Source: Actinomycetota bacterium (GTDB lineage: Bacteria > Actinomycetota > Actinomycetes > Actinomycetales > Microbacteriaceae). Taken from it: DNA of 40,688 bases. The translations under genes were made by a program, and so were the position numbers. Shown piece after piece: positions 14,987 through 23,300 of this stretch. Each line of letters starts with the position of its first letter. Position 1 is the stretch's first letter. A model generated the notes under the pieces. The model had not been told where the DNA came from. It did no database searches and saw only the letters and a list, made by a program, of their open reading frames with translations. Where the stretch lies: positions 1 through 40,688 of the forward strand of contig JAFDWM010000298.1 in assembly GCA_018268455.1 (NCBI GenBank), written 5' to 3'.

Positions 14987-15068
14987 CTGGGCGTGGCTCT
15001 GCGACCTGCCCTGCGCAGCCGGATGCGCGGATCCGTCGCCTCCGGAACCCGGCACCTCGCACCGCGGG

Positions 15069-15074
15069 TAGCGT
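15069..15074 (+). promoter_or_regulatory. Predicted -10 box (TAGCGT) for a leaderless OYE mRNA
   Basis: TAGCGT ends seven bases before the GTG at 15082. No ribosome site is present, which supports a leaderless start. Confidence 0.5.
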
Positions 15075-15081
15075 CGAAGCC

Positions 15082-16149
15082 GTGAGCCATCTGTTCTCCC
15101 CGCTGACCCTGCGTTCGCTGACTCTGCCGAACCGGCTCTGGGTCTCCCCCATGTGCATGTACAGCGCCGTCGAGGGGCTGCCGAACGACTGGCACCGCAC
15201 GCATCTCGCGCAGTTCGCCTCCGGCGGTGCCGGCCTCATCGTCGCCGAGGCCACGGCCGTCGTGCCGGAGGGGCGCATCTCCCCGCGCGACACCGGGCTG
15301 TGGAACGACGCCCAGCGTGACGCGTGGGCGCCGATCGTGCAGAGCGTGCACGATCGCGGGGGTCTGATCGGCGTGCAGCTCGCACACGCCGGGCGCAAGG
15401 CGTCGACGTGGTGGCCATGGGCGCCCCAGCGCGGATCCGTCCCTGTCGCCGACGGAGGATGGCAGACCACCGCGCCTTCCGCCATCGCGTTCGCCGGCTT
15501 CGCGGAGCCGGAGGCGCTCGATGCGGCGGGCATCGCCCGCATCGTCGACGGCTTCCGCACGGCGACCCGACGCGCGCTGGATGCCGGGTTCGACGCGATC
15601 GAGTTGCACGCCGCGCACGGCTATCTGCTGCACCAGTTCCTGTCGCCGCTGAGCAACCTGCGCACCGACGACTATGGCGGATCCCTCGAGAACCGGGCGC
15701 GTCTGCTGCTCGAGGTCACCGATGCGGTGCGAGCAGAGACCGGCGAGGACGTTCCGCTCCTGGTGCGCCTCTCGGCGACCGATCACGCACCCGGCGGCTT
15801 CACCCCCGAGGAGGCCGCACGCGTCGGCGGCTGGGCGACCGAATACGGCGCCGACCTCATCGACGTCTCCAGCGGCGGTCTCGTCGCCCACCAGCGCATC
15901 GATGCGCACCCGGGTTATCAGGTGCCGCTCGCGGCGACCGTGCGCCAGGGCGGGCGGATCCGCTCCTCCGCAGTCGGTCTGCTCACCAGCGGTGCGCAGG
16001 CAGAGGCCGTGCTCGCCGCGGGCGACGCCGACGCGATCTTCGCCGCCCGCGAATGGCTGCGCGACCCCCATTTCGCGCTCCGCGCCGCGCACGAGCTCGG
16101 CGCCGAGGTGCCGTGGCCCGACCAGTACCTCCGCGCGCGCTGGCACTGA
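15082..16149 (+). CDS. NADH:flavin oxidoreductase, Old Yellow Enzyme (YqjM-like)
   Basis: FMN-dependent ene-reductase of 355 aa. The opening LFSPLTLRSLTLPNRLWVSPMCMYS is typical of the YqjM/thermophilic-like OYE branch, with the redox-tuning Cys in MCMYS. The block GVQLAHAGRKAS contains FMN- and substrate-contact residues. HAAHGYLLHQFLSPLSNLRTD is the family signature, and the catalytic-site pair lies in the HAGRK region. It starts at a GTG placed seven bases after a TAGCGT box. The longer in-frame ORF upstream is a shadow of nnrD. Substrates are activated alkenes in general; the natural one is unknown. Confidence 0.9.
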   Translation: MSHLFSPLTLRSLTLPNRLWVSPMCMYSAVEGLPNDWHRTHLAQFASGGAGLIVAEATAVVPEGRISPRDTGLWNDAQRDAWAPIVQSVHDRGGLIGVQLAHAGRKASTWWPWAPQRGSVPVADGGWQTTAPSAIAFAGFAEPEALDAAGIARIVDGFRTATRRALDAGFDAIELHAAHGYLLHQFLSPLSNLRTDDYGGSLENRARLLLEVTDAVRAETGEDVPLLVRLSATDHAPGGFTPEEAARVGGWATEYGADLIDVSSGGLVAHQRIDAHPGYQVPLAATVRQGGRIRSSAVGLLTSGAQAEAVLAAGDADAIFAAREWLRDPHFALRAAHELGAEVPWPDQYLRARWH

Positions 16150-16176
16150 GTACCGGCCGGGCTCCGGCTCAGTGCC
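16142..16176. terminator. Inverted repeat spanning both stop codons (OYE / CNNM)
   Basis: GGCACTGAG (16142-16150) and CTCAGTGCC (16168-16176) are perfect 9-bp arms. Both convergent genes therefore end in the same His-stop sequence. The inner CCGG repeats can extend the stem. Likely bidirectional terminator. Confidence 0.6.
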
Positions 16177-17230
16177 GCAGTCCGCGGCGCGTGATGTCGC
16201 GCACCTCGCCGACGAGCTCCTCGATGATGTCCTCGAGGAACAGGATCGCCGTGGTCTCTCCCGCCGCGTCGCGCACCTGCGCGAGGTGGCGGCCCGCGCG
16301 GCGCATGATCGTGAGGGCGTCCTCGAGGTCGGTGTCCTCCTGCATCGGCACCATCTGATGGATCCGCTTCGCCGGAATCGGCTTGACCGCATATGCGCCG
16401 GCATCGGGACCCTCGGCGGAACGGATCACATCCTTCAGGTGCACGTACCCGACGGGGGCGCCCGCGGCGTCGACCATCACGTAGCGCGAGAAGCCGTGCT
16501 TCGCCACAGCATGCTCGACATCATCAGGGGTCGCGTCGAGCGGGAGGGTGACGAGACTCGCAAGCGGCACCGCGACGTCCTTCGCATCCTTGTCGGTGAA
16601 CTCGACCACGGCGCTCACCGTGCCGGCCGCGTCGTCCAGCACCCCCTCGCGGCGGGACTGGTCGACGATCGTCGCGACCTCGTCGAGCGTGAACGTCGAG
16701 GCCGCCTCGTCCTTCGGCTCCACCCGGAACAACCGCACGACGCCGTTCGAGGTGGCGTTCAGCGCACGAATCACCGGGAAGAAGACCTTGGAGACCCAGA
16801 CCAGCGGCGTCGCGAGGATCAGCACAGCCCGGTCCGGCACCGAGAAGGCGAGGTTCTTCGGCACCATCTCACCGAACACGACGTGCAGGAACGACACGAT
16901 GACGAGCGTGATCACGAACGCGATCGCGTCGACGGCCGCCTCGCCCAGCCCGAACAGCCCCAGCGGGGCCGCGAGCAGGTGGTGGATCGCGGGCTCAGAC
17001 ACGTTCAGGATCAGCAGGGAGCACACGGTGATGCCCAGCTGCGAGGTCGCGAGCATGAGCGTGGCGTGCTCCATCGCGTACAGGGCGGTGCGCGCAGAGC
17101 GGGATCCGCGCTCGGCGAGCGGCTCGACCTGCGAGCGCCGCGCCGAGATCACGGCAAACTCGGCGCCGACGAAGAACGCGTTCAGCGCGAGCAGCACGAA
17201 CAGCCAGGCGATTCCGGCCCAGTCGCTCAT
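16169..17230 (-). CDS. CNNM/CBS-domain membrane protein, lacking the C-terminal CorC_HlyC domain
   Basis: Membrane protein of 353 aa in the CNNM (DUF21) family, which is linked to Mg2+ (and Co2+) export or homeostasis. The N-terminal CNNM transmembrane module (about 1-190) starts WAGIAWLFVLLALNAFFVGAEFAVISARRS and contains the conserved FGEMVPKNLAFS motif. A paired CBS regulatory module follows (about 200-335) and ends FLEDIIEELVGEV. The protein then stops, so the C-terminal CorC_HlyC domain present in the upstream paralogue is absent. Its ATG overlaps the paralogue's stop (ATGA). The two probably form one complex; this is inferred from coupling and homology. Confidence 0.88.
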   Translation of the reverse strand: MSDWAGIAWLFVLLALNAFFVGAEFAVISARRSQVEPLAERGSRSARTALYAMEHATLMLATSQLGITVCSLLILNVSEPAIHHLLAAPLGLFGLGEAAVDAIAFVITLVIVSFLHVVFGEMVPKNLAFSVPDRAVLILATPLVWVSKVFFPVIRALNATSNGVVRLFRVEPKDEAASTFTLDEVATIVDQSRREGVLDDAAGTVSAVVEFTDKDAKDVAVPLASLVTLPLDATPDDVEHAVAKHGFSRYVMVDAAGAPVGYVHLKDVIRSAEGPDAGAYAVKPIPAKRIHQMVPMQEDTDLEDALTIMRRAGRHLAQVRDAAGETTAILFLEDIIEELVGEVRDITRRGLRH

Positions 17231-18537
17231 CGGATTCCCTCCTCGCCGGCCGGGGTCGCGACGAACCGGATCCGATCCACCCGCCGCCCCTGCATCCGCA
17301 CCACGTGCAGCGTGCCGCCCGGCACGGGCACCTCATCGCCGACCTTCGGCAGCCGTTCGAGCACGCTCATCACGTAGCCGCCGACGGTGTCGTACACGTC
17401 GCCCTCCGGCACCTCGATGCCGGCGCTGGCGCGCAGCTCATCCGGGCGCAGCTCTGCCGGGAACGCGATGCCGTCACGGGTGCGCACGACGCCGGCCCGG
17501 CTGCGGTCGTGCTCATCGGACACCTCGCCGACGATCTCCTCGACCAGATCCTCCAGGGTCGCGATGCCCGCCGTGCCGCCGTACTCGTCCACGACGATCG
17601 CGAGCTGGTAGCCACCGCCGCGCAGTTCGGCCACAAGCGCATCCAGGTGCACGGTCTCCGGCACCCGCAGCGGCTCGGACGCCAGAGCTCCGACCGGCAC
17701 CTCGGTGCGGCGTTCGCGCGGCACCGACACGGCCGCCTTCAGATGCACGACGCCGGTGATGTCGTCGAGATCCTCGTCGTAGACGGGGAAGCGGCTGTGC
17801 CCGGTGCGCCGAGCCAGCCGGATGACGTCGTCTGCGGTGTCGTCGGCCGCGATCGCGTGCATGCTGGGGCGCGGCGTCATGACGTCGCCCGCGGTGAGCC
17901 GGGCGAAGCCCAGGCTGCGGTCGAGCAGGGTCGCCGTGTCCTCCTCGAGCAGTCCCGCACTCGCGGAACGGCGCACGAGCGAGCTGAGCTCCTCCGCCGA
18001 GCGCGCGCCGCTGAGCTCCTCCTTGGGCTCGATGCCCATGGCACGAAGCACGGCGTTCGCGGATCCGTTCAGCAGCGCGACGATCGGGCGGAACACCCAG
18101 GTGAACGCGGTCTGGAATGGGATCACGAGCTTCGCCGTCGCCACCGGCAGCGCCATCGCGAAGTTCTTCGGCACGAGCTCGCCGAGGATCATCGACAGCG
18201 TGGTGGCCACGAGCATCGCGATGACGACGGCGATCGTGACGGTGACCGGTTCCGGGATCCCCCAGCCGGCGAGCACGGGACGCAGCAGGTTCGACAGCGC
18301 CGGCTCCATGGTGAAACCGGTCAGCAGCGTGGTCAGCGTGATGCCGAGCTGCGCAGACGAGAGATGCGTCGACGTGATCTTCAGCGCCGCGATCGTCATG
18401 CCGAGCCGGCTCTCGCCGCGATCCCTGCGTGCTTCCAGGTCCGCGCGGTCGAGGTTGACGAGCGCGAACTCGCTGGCGACGAACAATCCCGTCCCCGCGA
18501 TGAGCAGAAGCCCCACGCCCAACCAGATGTAATCCAT
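17227..18537 (-). CDS. CNNM/CBS/CorC_HlyC membrane protein (putative Mg2+ exporter)
   Basis: Full-length CNNM-family protein of 436 aa, related to CorC/MpfA/HlyC-type transporters. The CNNM module (about 1-200) has the first helix [21 protein letters not shown] and the motif [14 protein letters not shown]. The CBS pair (about 210-345) contains [10 protein letters not shown] and [16 protein letters not shown], and the CorC_HlyC domain (about 350-430) ends with a KVGDEV strand. A GTG at 18540 is one codon earlier. The ATG at 18537 was preferred because GGAGGTGA (18552-18545) is seven bases away. The start overlaps the stop of an upstream 23-codon ORF (TGATG), and the ribosome site lies in the 3' arm of a hairpin. 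Mg2+ export is inferred from the family. Confidence 0.9.
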
Positions 18538-18608
18538 CACGGTGTCACCTCCGCCGAAGCGGAGACAGGGCTGTGGGGCGAGGTACTACAGGCAGGAGGG
18601 TCGTCCAT
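18537..18608 (-). CDS. Candidate 23-aa proline-rich leader peptide of the CNNM operon
   Basis: An ORF of 23 codons begins Met-Asp-Asp-Pro-Pro and has Pro at positions 4, 5, 11, 14 and 23, including the tandem CCT CCT codons that are unusual in this GC-rich DNA. A TAGAAT box ends ten bases before its ATG, giving a 5' leader of only about 3-5 nt. Its stop TGA overlaps the CNNM start (TGATG). Acidic-plus-proline N-termini are known in E. coli MgtL to destabilise ribosomes when Mg2+ is low. Nothing else in the short sequence resembles a folded protein. Calling it a regulatory leader peptide is an inference from layout, and it could be a chance ORF. Confidence 0.5.
   Translation of the reverse strand: MDDPPACSTSPHSPVSASAEVTP
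18549..18564 (-). promoter_or_regulatory. SD-sequestering UUCG hairpin before the CNNM gene
   Basis: On the reverse strand CTCCGC (18564-18559), TTCG (18558-18555) and GCGGAG (18554-18549) form a six-pair stem with the very stable UUCG tetraloop. The 3' arm overlaps the ribosome site GGAGGTGA (18552-18545) of the CNNM gene. The hairpin lies inside the leader ORF, so a ribosome finishing that ORF would open it. Confidence 0.55.
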
Positions 18609-18626
18609 GGTAGGCACGATTCTACC
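18609..18626 (-). promoter_or_regulatory. CNNM operon promoter (TAGAAT) inside an inverted repeat
   Basis: TAGAAT (18624-18619, reverse strand) matches the -10 consensus at five of six positions. GGTAG (18626-18622) and CTACC (18613-18609) form an inverted repeat with an 8-nt gap that spans the -10 and the expected start point. No clear -35 is visible. Confidence 0.5.
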
Positions 18627-18721
18627 GGCGCGGGCTCCGCCCGATGCTGAGCGGACGCCGTGCCGAACGCGTCGCGGCACCCTCGAGGTCAAGCCGTCGG
18701 CACGCCCGATCCGGACGCCCA

Positions 18722-18747
18722 CGCTCGCGCTGTCCTTAGCGCGAGCG
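18722..18747 (-). terminator. Terminator-like hairpin after guaB1
   Basis: CGCTCGCGCT (18722-18731) and AGCGCGAGCG (18738-18747) pair perfectly over 10 bp with a 6-nt loop. The hairpin begins 32 bases after the guaB1 stop. No T-run is seen. Confidence 0.55.
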
Positions 18748-18779
18748 CGCGAGACGAGCGAGCCCGCGTGCCGGACGGG

Positions 18780-20243
18780 TCACCAGCTGACCGGGAGCGC
18801 CTTGCCCTCCTCGTAGCCGGCCGCGGACTGCAGGCCGACCAGCGCGCGTTCGTGGAACTGCGGCACGGAGGATGCCCCGGCGTAGGTGAAGGAGGAGCGC
18901 ACGCCCGACGTGATCATGTCGACGAGGTCCTCGACGCCCGGGCGGAGCGGATCCAGGTAGATGCGCGACGAGGAGATGCCCTCGGCGAACAGCTCCTTGC
19001 GGGCGCGCTCGTACGCGTCCAGGCGTCCGAACCGAGCCTGCACGGCCTTGGTCGAGGCCATCCCCCAGCTCTCCTTGTAGATGCGGCCCTCGGCGTCGGT
19101 CTGCAGCTCCCCCGGCGCCTCGATGGTGCCCGCGAACCAGGATCCGATCATCACCGATGCGGCGCCCGCCGCCAGCGCCAGCGCGACGTCGCGGGGGTAG
19201 CGCACTCCCCCGTCCGCCCACACATGCGCGCCGAGCTGCGCCGCAGCCTGCGCCGTCTCGAGCACGGCGGAGAACTGCGGCCGGCCGACGGCAGTCATCA
19301 TGCGCGTCGTGCACATGGCTCCTGGCCCCACACCGACCTTGAGGATCGATGCTCCCGCCTCGACGAGGTCGCGCACGCCGTCGGCCGTGACGATGTTGCC
19401 GGCGACGATCGGGATCCCGAGATCGAGCGCCGCCACTGTGCGCAGCGCGGCCAGCATGCCCTCCTGATGCCCGTGCGCGGTGTCGACCACGAGCGCGTCG
19501 ACGCCCGCGGCGGCGAGCGCAGTGGCCTTCGCGGCCACGTCGCCGTTGATGCCGACGGCGGCCGCGACGACGAGCCGGCCCGAGGAGTCGACGGCCGGGC
19601 GGTACAGGGTCGAGCGCAGAGCGCCGCGGGCGGTCTGCGTGCCGACCAGGTGCCCGTGATCGAGCACGCACACCATCTCCGCCTCGACCGCGGTGATCGC
19701 ATCGAACGCCGCGCGCGGGTCGGACACGTCCTCGGCATCGAGCGCAGGGGTGTCCGCACGCACGAGATCGCCGAGCTGCGCATCGCGCAATGCCGTGGCG
19801 AGCCGGGCCGCGGGCAGGATCCCCCGGATCGCGTCGACGTGCACGCCCTCGGATCCGCCCGGCGCGTCGGCGACGACGATGCCGTGCCCCGCCGTCGCCG
19901 GCAGCAGCCGCAGCGCGTCCTCGACGGTGGCGAGCGGGGACAGCACCAGCGCGGTGTCCCAGGCCGCGGGCTGGCGCTTCACCCAGCGGATCGCGGCGTC
20001 GAGATCCTGCAGCGGCATATCCTGCGGCAGCACCCCGATGCCACCGCGGCGGGCGAGGGTCGCGGCGAGCCGCGGACCGGTTACCGAGTTCATGTTCGAG
20101 GCGACGAGCGGGATGGTCGCACCGGTCCCGTCCTGGGGCGCCAGATCAACCTGCAGACGGCTCGTCACCGCGGATCGCCGCGGCACGAGGAACACGTCGG
20201 AATACGTCAGATCGACCATCGGGGATTCGCCGGAGAACTGCAT
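18780..20243 (-). CDS. guaB1: GuaB1 family IMP dehydrogenase-related protein (GMP reductase)
   Basis: 487-aa member of the IMPDH/GMPR superfamily, close to the roughly 480 aa of mycobacterial GuaB1. The start at 20243 gives MQFSGES followed by DLTYSDVFLVPRRS, the family N-terminus; the 34 extra in-frame codons upstream lack this pattern. A CBS pair occupies about residues 90-205. The catalytic loop KVGVGPGAMCTTR contains Cys311, and the flap and C-terminal barrel follow. Mycobacterial GuaB1 acts as a GMP reductase that returns GMP to IMP, and that role is assumed here. A TACCCT box six bases before the ATG fits leaderless expression. It diverges from kgd. Confidence 0.9.
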   Translation of the reverse strand: MQFSGESPMVDLTYSDVFLVPRRSAVTSRLQVDLAPQDGTGATIPLVASNMNSVTGPRLAATLARRGGIGVLPQDMPLQDLDAAIRWVKRQPAAWDTALVLSPLATVEDALRLLPATAGHGIVVADAPGGSEGVHVDAIRGILPAARLATALRDAQLGDLVRADTPALDAEDVSDPRAAFDAITAVEAEMVCVLDHGHLVGTQTARGALRSTLYRPAVDSSGRLVVAAAVGINGDVAAKATALAAAGVDALVVDTAHGHQEGMLAALRTVAALDLGIPIVAGNIVTADGVRDLVEAGASILKVGVGPGAMCTTRMMTAVGRPQFSAVLETAQAAAQLGAHVWADGGVRYPRDVALALAAGAASVMIGSWFAGTIEAPGELQTDAEGRIYKESWGMASTKAVQARFGRLDAYERARKELFAEGISSSRIYLDPLRPGVEDLVDMITSGVRSSFTYAGASSVPQFHERALVGLQSAAGYEEGKALPVSW

Positions 20244-20249
20244 GGCCCC

Positions 20250-20255
20250 AGGGTA
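20250..20255 (-). promoter_or_regulatory. Predicted -10 box (TACCCT) for a leaderless guaB1 mRNA
   Basis: TACCCT on the reverse strand ends six bases before the ATG at 20243. This is a weaker match than the TAGNNT boxes elsewhere in the window. Confidence 0.4.
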
Positions 20256-20288
20256 GCCTTCCGCGCCCGTCCGGAGCCCTGGACACGT

Positions 20289-20294
20289 TAGGCT
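20289..20294 (+). promoter_or_regulatory. Candidate -10 box (TAGGCT) for kgd
   Basis: TAGGCT would place transcription start near 20301 and give a leader of about 78 nt. The leader holds a small hairpin, CCCGAG with CTCGGG. No -35 is evident. Confidence 0.35.
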
Positions 20295-20378
20295 TGAGAC
20301 CCGAACGCGTGGCCATACCCGAGAGGTCCTCGGGGCGGACCCCACCGCGGTTTCAGCGATGAAAGAGGGCGATCGAGC

Positions 20379-23300
20379 GTGTCGAGCCAGGTGACCGGCG
20401 TCGGGACTTCAGGAGATGGAGAGTTCGGGGCCAATTCCTGGCTCGTCGACGAGCTGTACGAACAGTTCAAGGTCGACCGCAACTCCGTCGACAAGGAGTG
20501 GTGGCCGGTTCTCGAGAACTATCACCCCTCCGACCAAGCCGCCGCTCCGGCCGCGGCCGCGCCTGCGGCGGCCCCCTCTGCGGCGCCCGCTCCCGCCGCG
20601 CACCCCGTGACCGCGCCGATCCCCGTGATCGGGCAGCAGCCCGTGGCCCGCACGACGACGAAGCCGGCCCGCGAGGCGCCCATCCCGGCGCAGGCCCAGG
20701 ACCGCGCGACCGGCCAGGGCGGCGACGAGTCGCACGCAGACGTCGTCACCCCGTTGCGCGGCATGCCGAAGACCCTCGCCGCGAACATGGACGAATCGCT
20801 GACCGTCCCCACCGCGACGAGCGTGCGCACCGTGCCCGCGAAGCTGATGATCGACAACCGCATCGTCATCAACAACCACATGTCCCGCACCCGCGGCGGC
20901 AAGGTCTCCTTCACGCACCTCATCGGCTGGGCGCTGATCCAGGCCCTCAAGGAGTTCCCCAGCCAGAACGTGTTCTACGCGGAGGTCGACGGCAAGCCCT
21001 CGGTAGTGTCGCCCGCGCACGTCAACCTGGGCATCGCGATCGACATCCCCAAGCCCGACGGAACCCGCGCCCTGCTGGTCCCGTCGATCAAGCGCGCCGA
21101 CACGCTCACGTTCAGCGAGTACCTGTCCGCGTACGAGGACCTCATCGTCCGCGCGCGCGGCAACAAGCTCACCGCCGGCGACTTCCAGGGCACCACGCTG
21201 TCGCTGACGAACCCCGGCGGAATCGGCACCGTGCACTCCGTGCCGCGTCTGATGAAGGGCCAGGGCTGCATCATCGGCGCCGGCGCCCTCGAATACCCGG
21301 CCGAGTTCCAGGGCGCCAGCCAGAAGACCATCGACGTGCTCGGCATCGGCAAGACGATCACGCTCACGAGCACCTACGACCACCGCGTCATCCAGGGCGC
21401 CGGATCGGGCGAGTTCCTGAAGAAGGTGCACGAGCTTCTCATCGGCGAGAGGGAGTTCTACGAGGGCATCTTCCGGGCGCTGCGGATCCCCTACGCGCCG
21501 ATCCGCTGGAACAAGGACATCGCGGTCGACCTCGCCGAGCGCATCGACAAGACCGCGCGCGTGCAGGAGCTGATCAACTCCTACCGCGTGCGCGGCCACC
21601 TGATGGCCGACATCGACCCCCTCGAGTACGTGCAGCGCACGCACCCCGACCTCGAGATCGAGACCCACGGGCTCACGTTCTGGGATCTCGACCGCGAGTT
21701 CGTCACGAACGGGTTCGGCGGCCAGCGCCAGCTCAAGCTGCGCGACATCCTCGGCGTGCTGCGCGACTCGTACTGCCGCACCATCGGCATCGAGTACATG
21801 CACATCCAGGATCCGGACCAGCGCCGCTGGTTCCAGGACAAGATCGAGGTCAAGTACGTCAAGCCCGGCCACGACGAGCAGCTGCGCGTGTTGAGCAAGC
21901 TCAACGAGGCGGAGGCCTTCGAGACCTTCCTGCAGACCAAGTACGTCGGCCAGAAGCGCTTCTCGCTCGAGGGCGCCGAGTCCCTCGTCCCGCTGCTGGA
22001 CGAGATCCTGCAGGGTGCGGCGGGCGCCGGCCTGGACGGCGCCGCGATCGGCATGGCCCACCGCGGCCGCCTGAACGTACTCGCCAACATCGCCGGCAAG
22101 ACGTACGGCCAGGTGTTCCGCGAGTTCGAGGGCTCCACCCAGCCGGGCAACCAGCGCGGATCCGGCGACGTCAAGTACCACCTGGGCAAGGAGGGCACGT
22201 TCGTCGCCGACGACGGCGCAGAGCTGCCGATCCTCCTCGCGGCGAACCCGTCGCACCTGGAGACCGTGGACGGCGTGCTCGAGGGCATCGCCCGCGCGAA
22301 GCAGGACCGCAAGCCGATCGGCACGTTCACCTGGTTGCCGATCCTGGTGCACGGAGACGCCGCCTTCGCGGGCCAGGGCGTCGTCGTGGAGACGCTGCAG
22401 ATGTCGCAGCTGCGCGGCTACCGCACCGGCGGCACCGTGCACGTTGTCGTGAACAACCAGGTGGGCTTCACCACCCTGCCCAACGACTCGCGCACCTCGG
22501 TGTACGCGACCGACGTCGCCAAGACCATCCAGGCTCCGATCCTGCACGTGAACGGCGACGACCCGGAGGCCGTCGTGCATGTCGCGCAGCTCGCCTTCGA
22601 GTACCGCGAGAAGTTCCACCGCGACATCGTGATCGACCTGGTCTGCTACCGCCGCCGCGGTCACAACGAGGGCGACGACCCGTCGATGACCCAGCCGCTG
22701 ATGACCGACCTCATCCAGGCCAAGCGCTCTGTGCGCAGCCTGTACACCGAGGCGCTCGTCGGCCGCGGCGACATCACCCAGGAGGAGTACGACCAGGCCA
22801 AGGCCGACTTCCAGAACCGCCTGGAGATCGCCTTCGCGGAGACGCACGCCGTCGAGACCGGCGCCACGCCGATCGCGCCGGACCTCGCCCCGATGGACGA
22901 GCAGACCGGCTCGCTCGAGATGAGCGGCGTGCCGCTCGAGGTCGTGCACCTCATCGGCGACGCACACGCGAACCAGCCCTCGGGCTTCACCGTGCACGCG
23001 AAGCTGAAGCAGGCGATGGACAAGCGCGTCGACATGAGCCGCAACGGCTCCATCGACTGGGGCTTCGGCGAGCTGCTCGCGTTCGGCTCGCTGCTGGTCG
23101 AGGGAATCCCGGTGCGCCTGGCCGGCCAGGACTCGCGGCGTGGCACCTTCGTGCAGCGCCACGCGGTGCTGCACGACCGCGCGAACGGCCAGGAGTGGCT
23201 GCCGCTGGCGAACCTCTCCGACAACCAGGCCCGGTTCTTCGTCTACGACTCGCTGCTCAGCGAGTACGCGGCGCTCGGGTTCGAGTACGGCTACTCGGTG

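Follow-up and report, generated by a model that had tools for sequence, protein, structure and literature searches.

The window (the whole stretch of DNA analysed here, 40,688 nucleotides) comes from a genome of 3.6 Mb. Species genomes were scanned with the CNNM protein described below, and the nearest relatives place this genome in Microbacterium. Its minus strand carries a gene, P0001 (17227..18537), for a protein in which the CNNM, CBS and CorC_HlyC domains all score above cut-off. The gene opens with an ATG, and we amend the first-pass annotation of this DNA with an alternative GTG start one codon upstream (18540). A second CNNM + CBS protein (P0002, 16169..17230, minus strand) is encoded by a frame that overlaps the end of the P0001 gene. 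By homology only, P0001 is a putative Mg2+ exporter; the best NCBIfam match of P0001 is PaeA (polyamine export), at a score far under cut-off, and PaeA-like polyamine export is a possible alternative. Upstream of P0001 and its leader lies a guaB1-type GMP reductase gene (18780-20345, NCBIfam match above cut-off), and at some loci of other genera, such as L094 and L113, the leader is likewise preceded, by eye, by the end of this gene. The window's own genome has two CorA genes and no match to MgtE. A similar leader on importers was considered and set aside, since by eye no Asp-Asp-Pro-Pro reading frame occurs in the 150 nt 5' of either CorA frame.

The elements that the first-pass annotation had read upstream of P0001 are all present on the minus strand. 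A -10-like box, TAGAAT (18619..18624), lies 10 nt 5' of the ATG (18608) of a 23-codon reading frame, MDDPPACSTSPHSPVSASAEVTP (18537..18608, TGA at 18539-18537), with five prolines and tandem CCT at codons 4-5. Codons 2-5 (GAC GAC CCT CCT, 18594..18605) encode Asp-Asp-Pro-Pro, the conserved core. CCT is as rare as had been claimed, making up 2.6% of proline codons in homologous CNNM genes. The leader TGA overlaps the CNNM ATG (18537) as TGATG, and a hairpin, CTCCGC-TTCG-GCGGAG (P2, 18549..18564), holds in its 3' arm the CNNM Shine-Dalgarno (SD) site GGAGGTGA (18545..18552), located from the sequence and the anti-SD duplex score. Because no SD site is seen 5' of the leader ATG in the window sequence, the position of the TAGAAT box predicts a leaderless transcript or one with a 5' UTR of 0-3 nt. 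Scans for two-box sigma-70 promoters and for terminators found none, a result that does not contradict a leaderless promoter with a -10 box only. No Rfam riboswitch model, the M-box included, matches positions 15000-22000 at E values of 1 or less, and a Mg2+ riboswitch of a known family was set aside on that basis.

Conservation of the leader and its link to CNNM genes

To describe the leader within the genus, we used the best 80 loci of 563 relatives from the CNNM-protein scan of species genomes; they belong to Microbacterium, apart from a few records named to family or phylum only and one Agromyces. One locus (L081) starts inside the gene, leaving 79 loci and the window, or 80 leaders. The first-pass annotation had proposed aligning the leader across relatives, and the alignment bears it out: the start reads M-D-D-P-P in 79/80 leaders and M-E-D-P-P in the other, each of the 80 ATGs has a TANNNT box at a distance of 9 or 10 nt on its 5' side, and lengths (20 to 37 codons) change by whole codons, as where codon 7 is missing in L038, L060 and L068. 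Relative to the aligned position of the CNNM ATG, the stop falls at -2 in 75/80 (it deviates in L072, L076, L077, L082 and L083), the exact TGATG is found in 74/80, and L056 lacks a CNNM ATG at the aligned position. In-frame indels, synonymous change and the preserved stop/start overlap make the reading frame coding-like. It is a short leader with acidic and proline residues at its N-terminus, as in leaders of the IRD (MgtL-like) type, and its stop overlaps or abuts the next start, as in leaderless coupled small ORFs. Cysteine sensing was dropped as a candidate because, in the 80 leaders, residue 7 is Ser seven times and Arg or Tyr four times.

This arrangement is closely tied to CNNM genes. 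Over both strands of the 79 loci (1.1 Mb) there are only 16 non-leader TANNNT-N9/10-ATG sites, none with Asp or Glu at residue 2. In the window's own genome ATG-GAN-GAN-CCN-CC occurs at 4 sites, and the CNNM site alone is boxed (6-12 nt) and reads M-D-D-P-P. We then scanned 120 Microbacteriaceae genomes from 85 genera for a box followed by ATG-GAY-GAY-CCN-CC and obtained 45 matches at 10 nt and 29 at 9 nt, in 70/120 genomes, with 0 matches to a reversed control pattern in the same 120. Seventy-two of the 74 matches sit no more than 250 nt before a CNNM start, and the remaining 2 lie near contig ends where the following bases read, by eye, as a CNNM N-terminus; the boxed M-D-D-P-P thus precedes CNNM genes in 74/74 cases. 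Most members of the family retain this peptide start, and its occurrence is linked to a single gene family.

A CNNM match was found in 119/120 of the family genomes, and the region 5' of the primary gene was scanned in each. By a strict rule, [M/V][D/E][D/E]PP, a leader is present in 82/119 and absent in 37/119; a boxed uORF starting M-[D/E] occurs in 20 further genomes (in one, G020, it is CNNM itself), and 17/119 have no leader by either rule. A few of those 17 show related starts by eye, e.g. MGEPPS (L225, L292). The TANNNT box stands at 9 or 10 nt in 83/95 family leaders, and in the 88 family leaders counted under a lenient rule, the distance from the stop to the CNNM start candidate that fits best is -13 to +25 nt. 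CNNM paralogs are second copies of about 58-61% identity; 12 of 14 were fetched, and 9/12 of these loci carry a strict leader. The paralog leaders, which come from several genera, begin MDDPP or MEDPP (L230, L231, L234, L238-L241, L306, L307), with S/H-H-x-P-x-P often next.

Beyond the family, 37/85 loci have a boxed uORF whose end falls at the CNNM start, against 1.4% in shuffled upstream DNA, and 48/85 loci have no boxed uORF. An acidic residue occurs at positions 2-5 in 21/37 of these leaders and [D/E]PP within the first 20 residues in 7/37; others are Pro-rich and basic. Because of these counts, we regard the leaderless-type coupled uORF as the wider feature and Asp-Asp-Pro-Pro as the one specific to Microbacteriaceae. 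Other actinomycete families have uORF starts of their own before CNNM that resemble one another among neighbours (L137-L139, L152, L155, L158, L160, e.g. MSSDAR.DSDPPST), and the starts MSTPPDDPPSRR and MDGSSCSTC were seen by eye before CNNM, with no box match.

Selection on the leader peptide and its codons

For comparison between genera we used 90 strict leaders of 130 loci from genera other than Microbacterium, a set chosen by the motif itself. As the first-pass annotation had asked of synonymous sites, the Asp and Pro codons vary between genera while the residues stay constant, with two to four synonyms at each of Asp2, Asp3, Pro4 and Pro5 (codon 2: GAC 56, GAT 33, GAA 1; codon 4: CCT 62, CCC 25, CCG 3; codon 5: CCT 38, CCC 26, CCG 23, CCA 3). 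Residue 7 and those after it show no common sequence, and lengths range over 11-63 codons. Codon choice is itself biased: codon 4 is CCT or CCC in 166/170 leaders and CCG in 4/170, although CCG makes up 55-61% of the proline codons in CNNM genes, and in Microbacterium rare codons with T or A in third place predominate at codons 4, 6, 8 and 9, where GC3 is 0.08, 0.09, 0.01 and 0.35 against about 0.9 expected. The Asp-Asp-Pro-Pro start is under amino-acid selection, with codon-level selection besides. The rare codons may reflect slower decoding, tRNA-Pro choice or an open 5' end.

These patterns bear on three other explanations of the conserved start. Strong nucleotide conservation within Microbacterium would suit a motif acting as DNA or at the RNA 5' end, or else a small protein with a function of its own, in place of a leader peptide; against this stand synonymous changes at codons 2-5 between genera, in-frame 3-nt losses, and peptides that can be as short as 11 residues and share no C-terminal part. 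We consider this reading highly improbable. A second explanation is that coupling is constitutive, the leader merely delivering ribosomes while Asp-Asp-Pro-Pro holds output at a constant low level and has no sensing role. Leaderless coupled small ORFs are over-represented in mycobacteria according to the published account (PMC4633059), and the rare codons leave the 5' end more open than synonymous recodes do (mean unpaired 0.61 vs 0.54). A fixed dose, however, needs no identical four residues before CNNM across dozens of genera, and no other boxed M-D-D-P-P site was found in the 120 genomes. We find constitutive coupling rather unlikely.

The main rival is a proline sensor, in which the leader reads Pro-tRNA charging, TrmD-made m1G37 on tRNA-Pro, or EF-P, and not acid-driven destabilisation; slow decoding of Pro4-Pro5 would halt the ribosome and leave CNNM off, and Mg2+ may enter via TrmD. 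The avoidance of CCG at codon 4 fits such a sensor, as do the published description of MgtL, with CC[C/U] at codons 3, 5 and 7 and a smaller Mg2+ response in a trmD mutant (PMC6335274), and the leaders of other families, with [D/E]PP in some and proline-rich starts without early acids in others. Against it, Asp2-Asp3 are about as constant as the prolines, in the motif-chosen set and also in the unselected genus set, CCG is found at codon 5 in 23/90, and rare codons ending in T or A are also seen at Ser6 and codons 8-9, where Pro-tRNA offers no explanation. We judge a proline sensor unlikely as the basis of the leader. Destabilisation driven by acidic residues and proline, which we prefer, leaves in its turn the non-acidic Pro-rich leaders of other families (e.g. 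MPSRP...) unexplained.

Predicted RNA structure over the CNNM start

To assess the hairpin that the first-pass annotation had proposed to mask the CNNM ribosome site, we used 28 gap-free leaders of 32 equal-length rows, leaving out L054, L060, L068 and L073, in which the arm is shifted. Within these 28 leaders, 93.9% of cells are paired and 14 cells show a double change, each value being reached by 0/500 shuffles; 3 pairs have a double change, a number reached by 22/500 shuffles, in a shuffle that ignores relatedness. Sliding P2 out of register lowers pairing to 49-64%. The loop is not kept among relatives, and UUCG as a special element was dropped.

Folding three clades apart (n = 28, 10 including the window, and 10) shows the window hairpin to be one part of a larger predicted fold. 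The separate consensus folds add a long-range helix, P1, in which leader GCCCCAC pairs with CNNM GUGGGGC and up to 5 further pairs form, and which is predicted to enclose both P2 and a start-codon hairpin, P3. In the window the 5' strand of P1, GCCCCAC-A-GCCC(T), covers leader codons 10-14 (18567..18579), the 3' strand, (T)GGGC GTGGGGC, lies inside CNNM at codons 7-11 from the alternative GTG (18510..18521), and P3, GATG-GATTA-CATC (18526..18538), is predicted only. RNAalifold returned no structure on the mixed-clade alignment A2, probably from the mixing of clades.

P1 was assessed on 71 sequences, namely the window and 70 of the 79 loci, with 3 duplicates and 6 long leaders out. Pairing reaches 95.1%, against 38-57% when the strands are slid; the shuffle control (46/500 and 38/500) and covariation are uninformative for this helix because P1 hardly varies. 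We consider that independent support for P1 comes from the frozen codons on its CNNM side. Numbering from the alternative GTG, codons 9-10 read GTG GGG in 77/78 genes (18510-18516 in the window); no other four-fold site at a well-conserved residue within CNNM codons 1-180 is as invariant, and GGG makes up 14% of glycine codons in CNNM genes. CNNM codon 7 is TTG in 71%, against a background of 1.8%.

Among the 80 leaders of the Microbacterium set, opening the SD site and start costs 16.0 kcal/mol, against 12.6 kcal/mol in synonymous recodes; 94% of the leaders are costlier than their recodes, and 31% have a p of 0.05 or less singly. Outside Microbacterium the values are 12.2 vs 11.2 kcal/mol, with 56% of 79 above recodes. 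A shorter test gave 10.5 vs 8.5 and 9.6 vs 8.4, and the window alone has a p of 0.07 in the longer test and 0.44 in the shorter. The proposed masking hairpin thus stands within Microbacterium, where it covaries, but masking is weak outside that genus. Because of this weakness, and because the UUCG hairpin is not conserved, we take the family-wide core to be coupling plus Asp-Asp-Pro-Pro, with the hairpin not part of it. Within Microbacterium the folds suggest a predicted, partly covarying lock on the CNNM start, which a ribosome translating the leader would open.

Proposed regulation of CNNM and comparison with known leaders

We lean towards a reading in which this is a leaderless, cis-acting leader that is translationally coupled to CNNM. 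Ribosomes would pause at its Asp-Asp-Pro-Pro start or be lost there, and CNNM would be made only while translation proceeds well. Judging by the box spacing, the transcript would begin with the leader ATG or no more than about 3 nt away from it, and the ribosome would load straight onto its 5' end. With nascent Met-Asp-Asp-Pro-Pro on conserved rare codons, weak ribosomes, such as those expected at low Mg2+ by analogy with MgtL, would stall or dissociate early in elongation. A surviving ribosome would pass the 3' half of the leader, open the structure over the CNNM ribosome site and start codon, stop at the overlapping TGA and hand over to CNNM, which would be off at low Mg2+ and on at sufficient Mg2+.

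Leader translation, drop-off, Mg2+ as the signal and the sign of control are inferred. Mg2+ is the most likely signal, and OFF at low Mg2+ the most likely sign, because of four published observations: the ribosome drop-off of MgtL at EPDP (PMC11282234), the induction of Salmonella corC and mgpA (yoaE) by Mg2+ (PMC12421838), and two statements that the latter source cites from others, namely that CorC carries an N-terminal IRD sequence and that loss of the YoaL start lowers MgpA (PMC12421838). The Mg2+-induced corC and mgpA also provide published parallels for a sign opposite to that of MgtL. OFF at low Mg2+ is favoured further because translation would fail before the ribosome reaches P1 and P2. 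This bears on the reverse sign, in which leader drop-off would free the CNNM ribosome site and raise CNNM at low Mg2+. Asp2 and Glu5 of Salmonella mgtQ are described as promoting mgtB translation in this way (PMC8092293); here, drop-off at codons 4-6 would occur 5' of P1 and P2 and leave both closed, no freeing structure appears in the consensus folds, which are the only folds considered for this point, and in Salmonella high Mg2+ induces genes with a CorC domain (PMC12421838). We consider the reverse sign very unlikely.

Known leaders resemble this one in part, as compared by their published descriptions. MgtL of mgtA in E. coli and Salmonella is likewise a short leader with an acidic and proline-containing start (EPDP), CC[C/U] codons and a link to Mg2+ transport, but it governs Rho termination of an importer and is on at low Mg2+, whereas the CNNM leader is of the leaderless type, is coupled to a putative exporter and has its stop on the start codon. 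MgtQ of mgtB in Salmonella is a uORF with Asp2 and Glu5 in which translation is aborted, with an effect on a hairpin that masks the SD; unlike the leader described here, it has eight codons, lies inside an operon and opens the SD of an importer by drop-off (PMC8092293). The enterobacterial YoaL-YoaE (MgpA) and CorC (YbeX) systems involve Mg2+-induced CorC-domain genes, YoaL overlaps MgpA, and the YoaL start codon is needed for MgpA translation (PMC12421838), yet MgpA is a TerC-CBS-CorC protein and not a CNNM, and a Mg2+ role of YoaL is suggested there. Mycobacterial leaderless coupled small ORFs are joined to their gene by an RTGA overlap, and neither an Asp-Asp-Pro-Pro class nor a CNNM target was seen in the account consulted (PMC4633059).

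There are thus, in the accounts available, precedents for each part, i.e. leaderless coupled ORFs (PMC4633059), IRD leaders and SD locks. The titles and abstracts listed by literature searches yielded no described CNNM leader in actinobacteria and no precedent for the combination, the target, the family-wide reach or the polarity. It is possible, and we propose it tentatively, that the leader is an independently evolved ribosome-fitness gate of actinomycetes, most evidently of Microbacteriaceae, for CNNM alone, a convergent Mg2+ gauge with exporter polarity whose lock in Microbacterium includes the GTG GGG codons; independence would here be from the enterobacterial MgtL, YoaL and CorC leaders, with nascent-chain-driven ribosome drop-off as the shared principle. 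If confirmed, ribosome destabilisation driven by acidic residues and proline would emerge as a sensing principle that recurs, one that a compact reporter system could probe in soil bacteria. To our knowledge, little is known of responses to excess Mg2+ outside enterobacteria and M-box users, or of the regulation of CNNM exporters.

Three loci depart from the usual form of the leader. In L274 and L275 very short boxed leaders, MDPDSCRP and MDPDSCSPS, stand before CNNM, with Asp and Pro alternating as in MgtL. In L226 (G041) the MDDPPS leader lies about 30 nt ahead of the aligned CNNM start and its frame continues into CNNM uninterrupted by a stop, as if the leader were fused to the protein, an arrangement that may be compared with the IRD reported at the CorC N-terminus.
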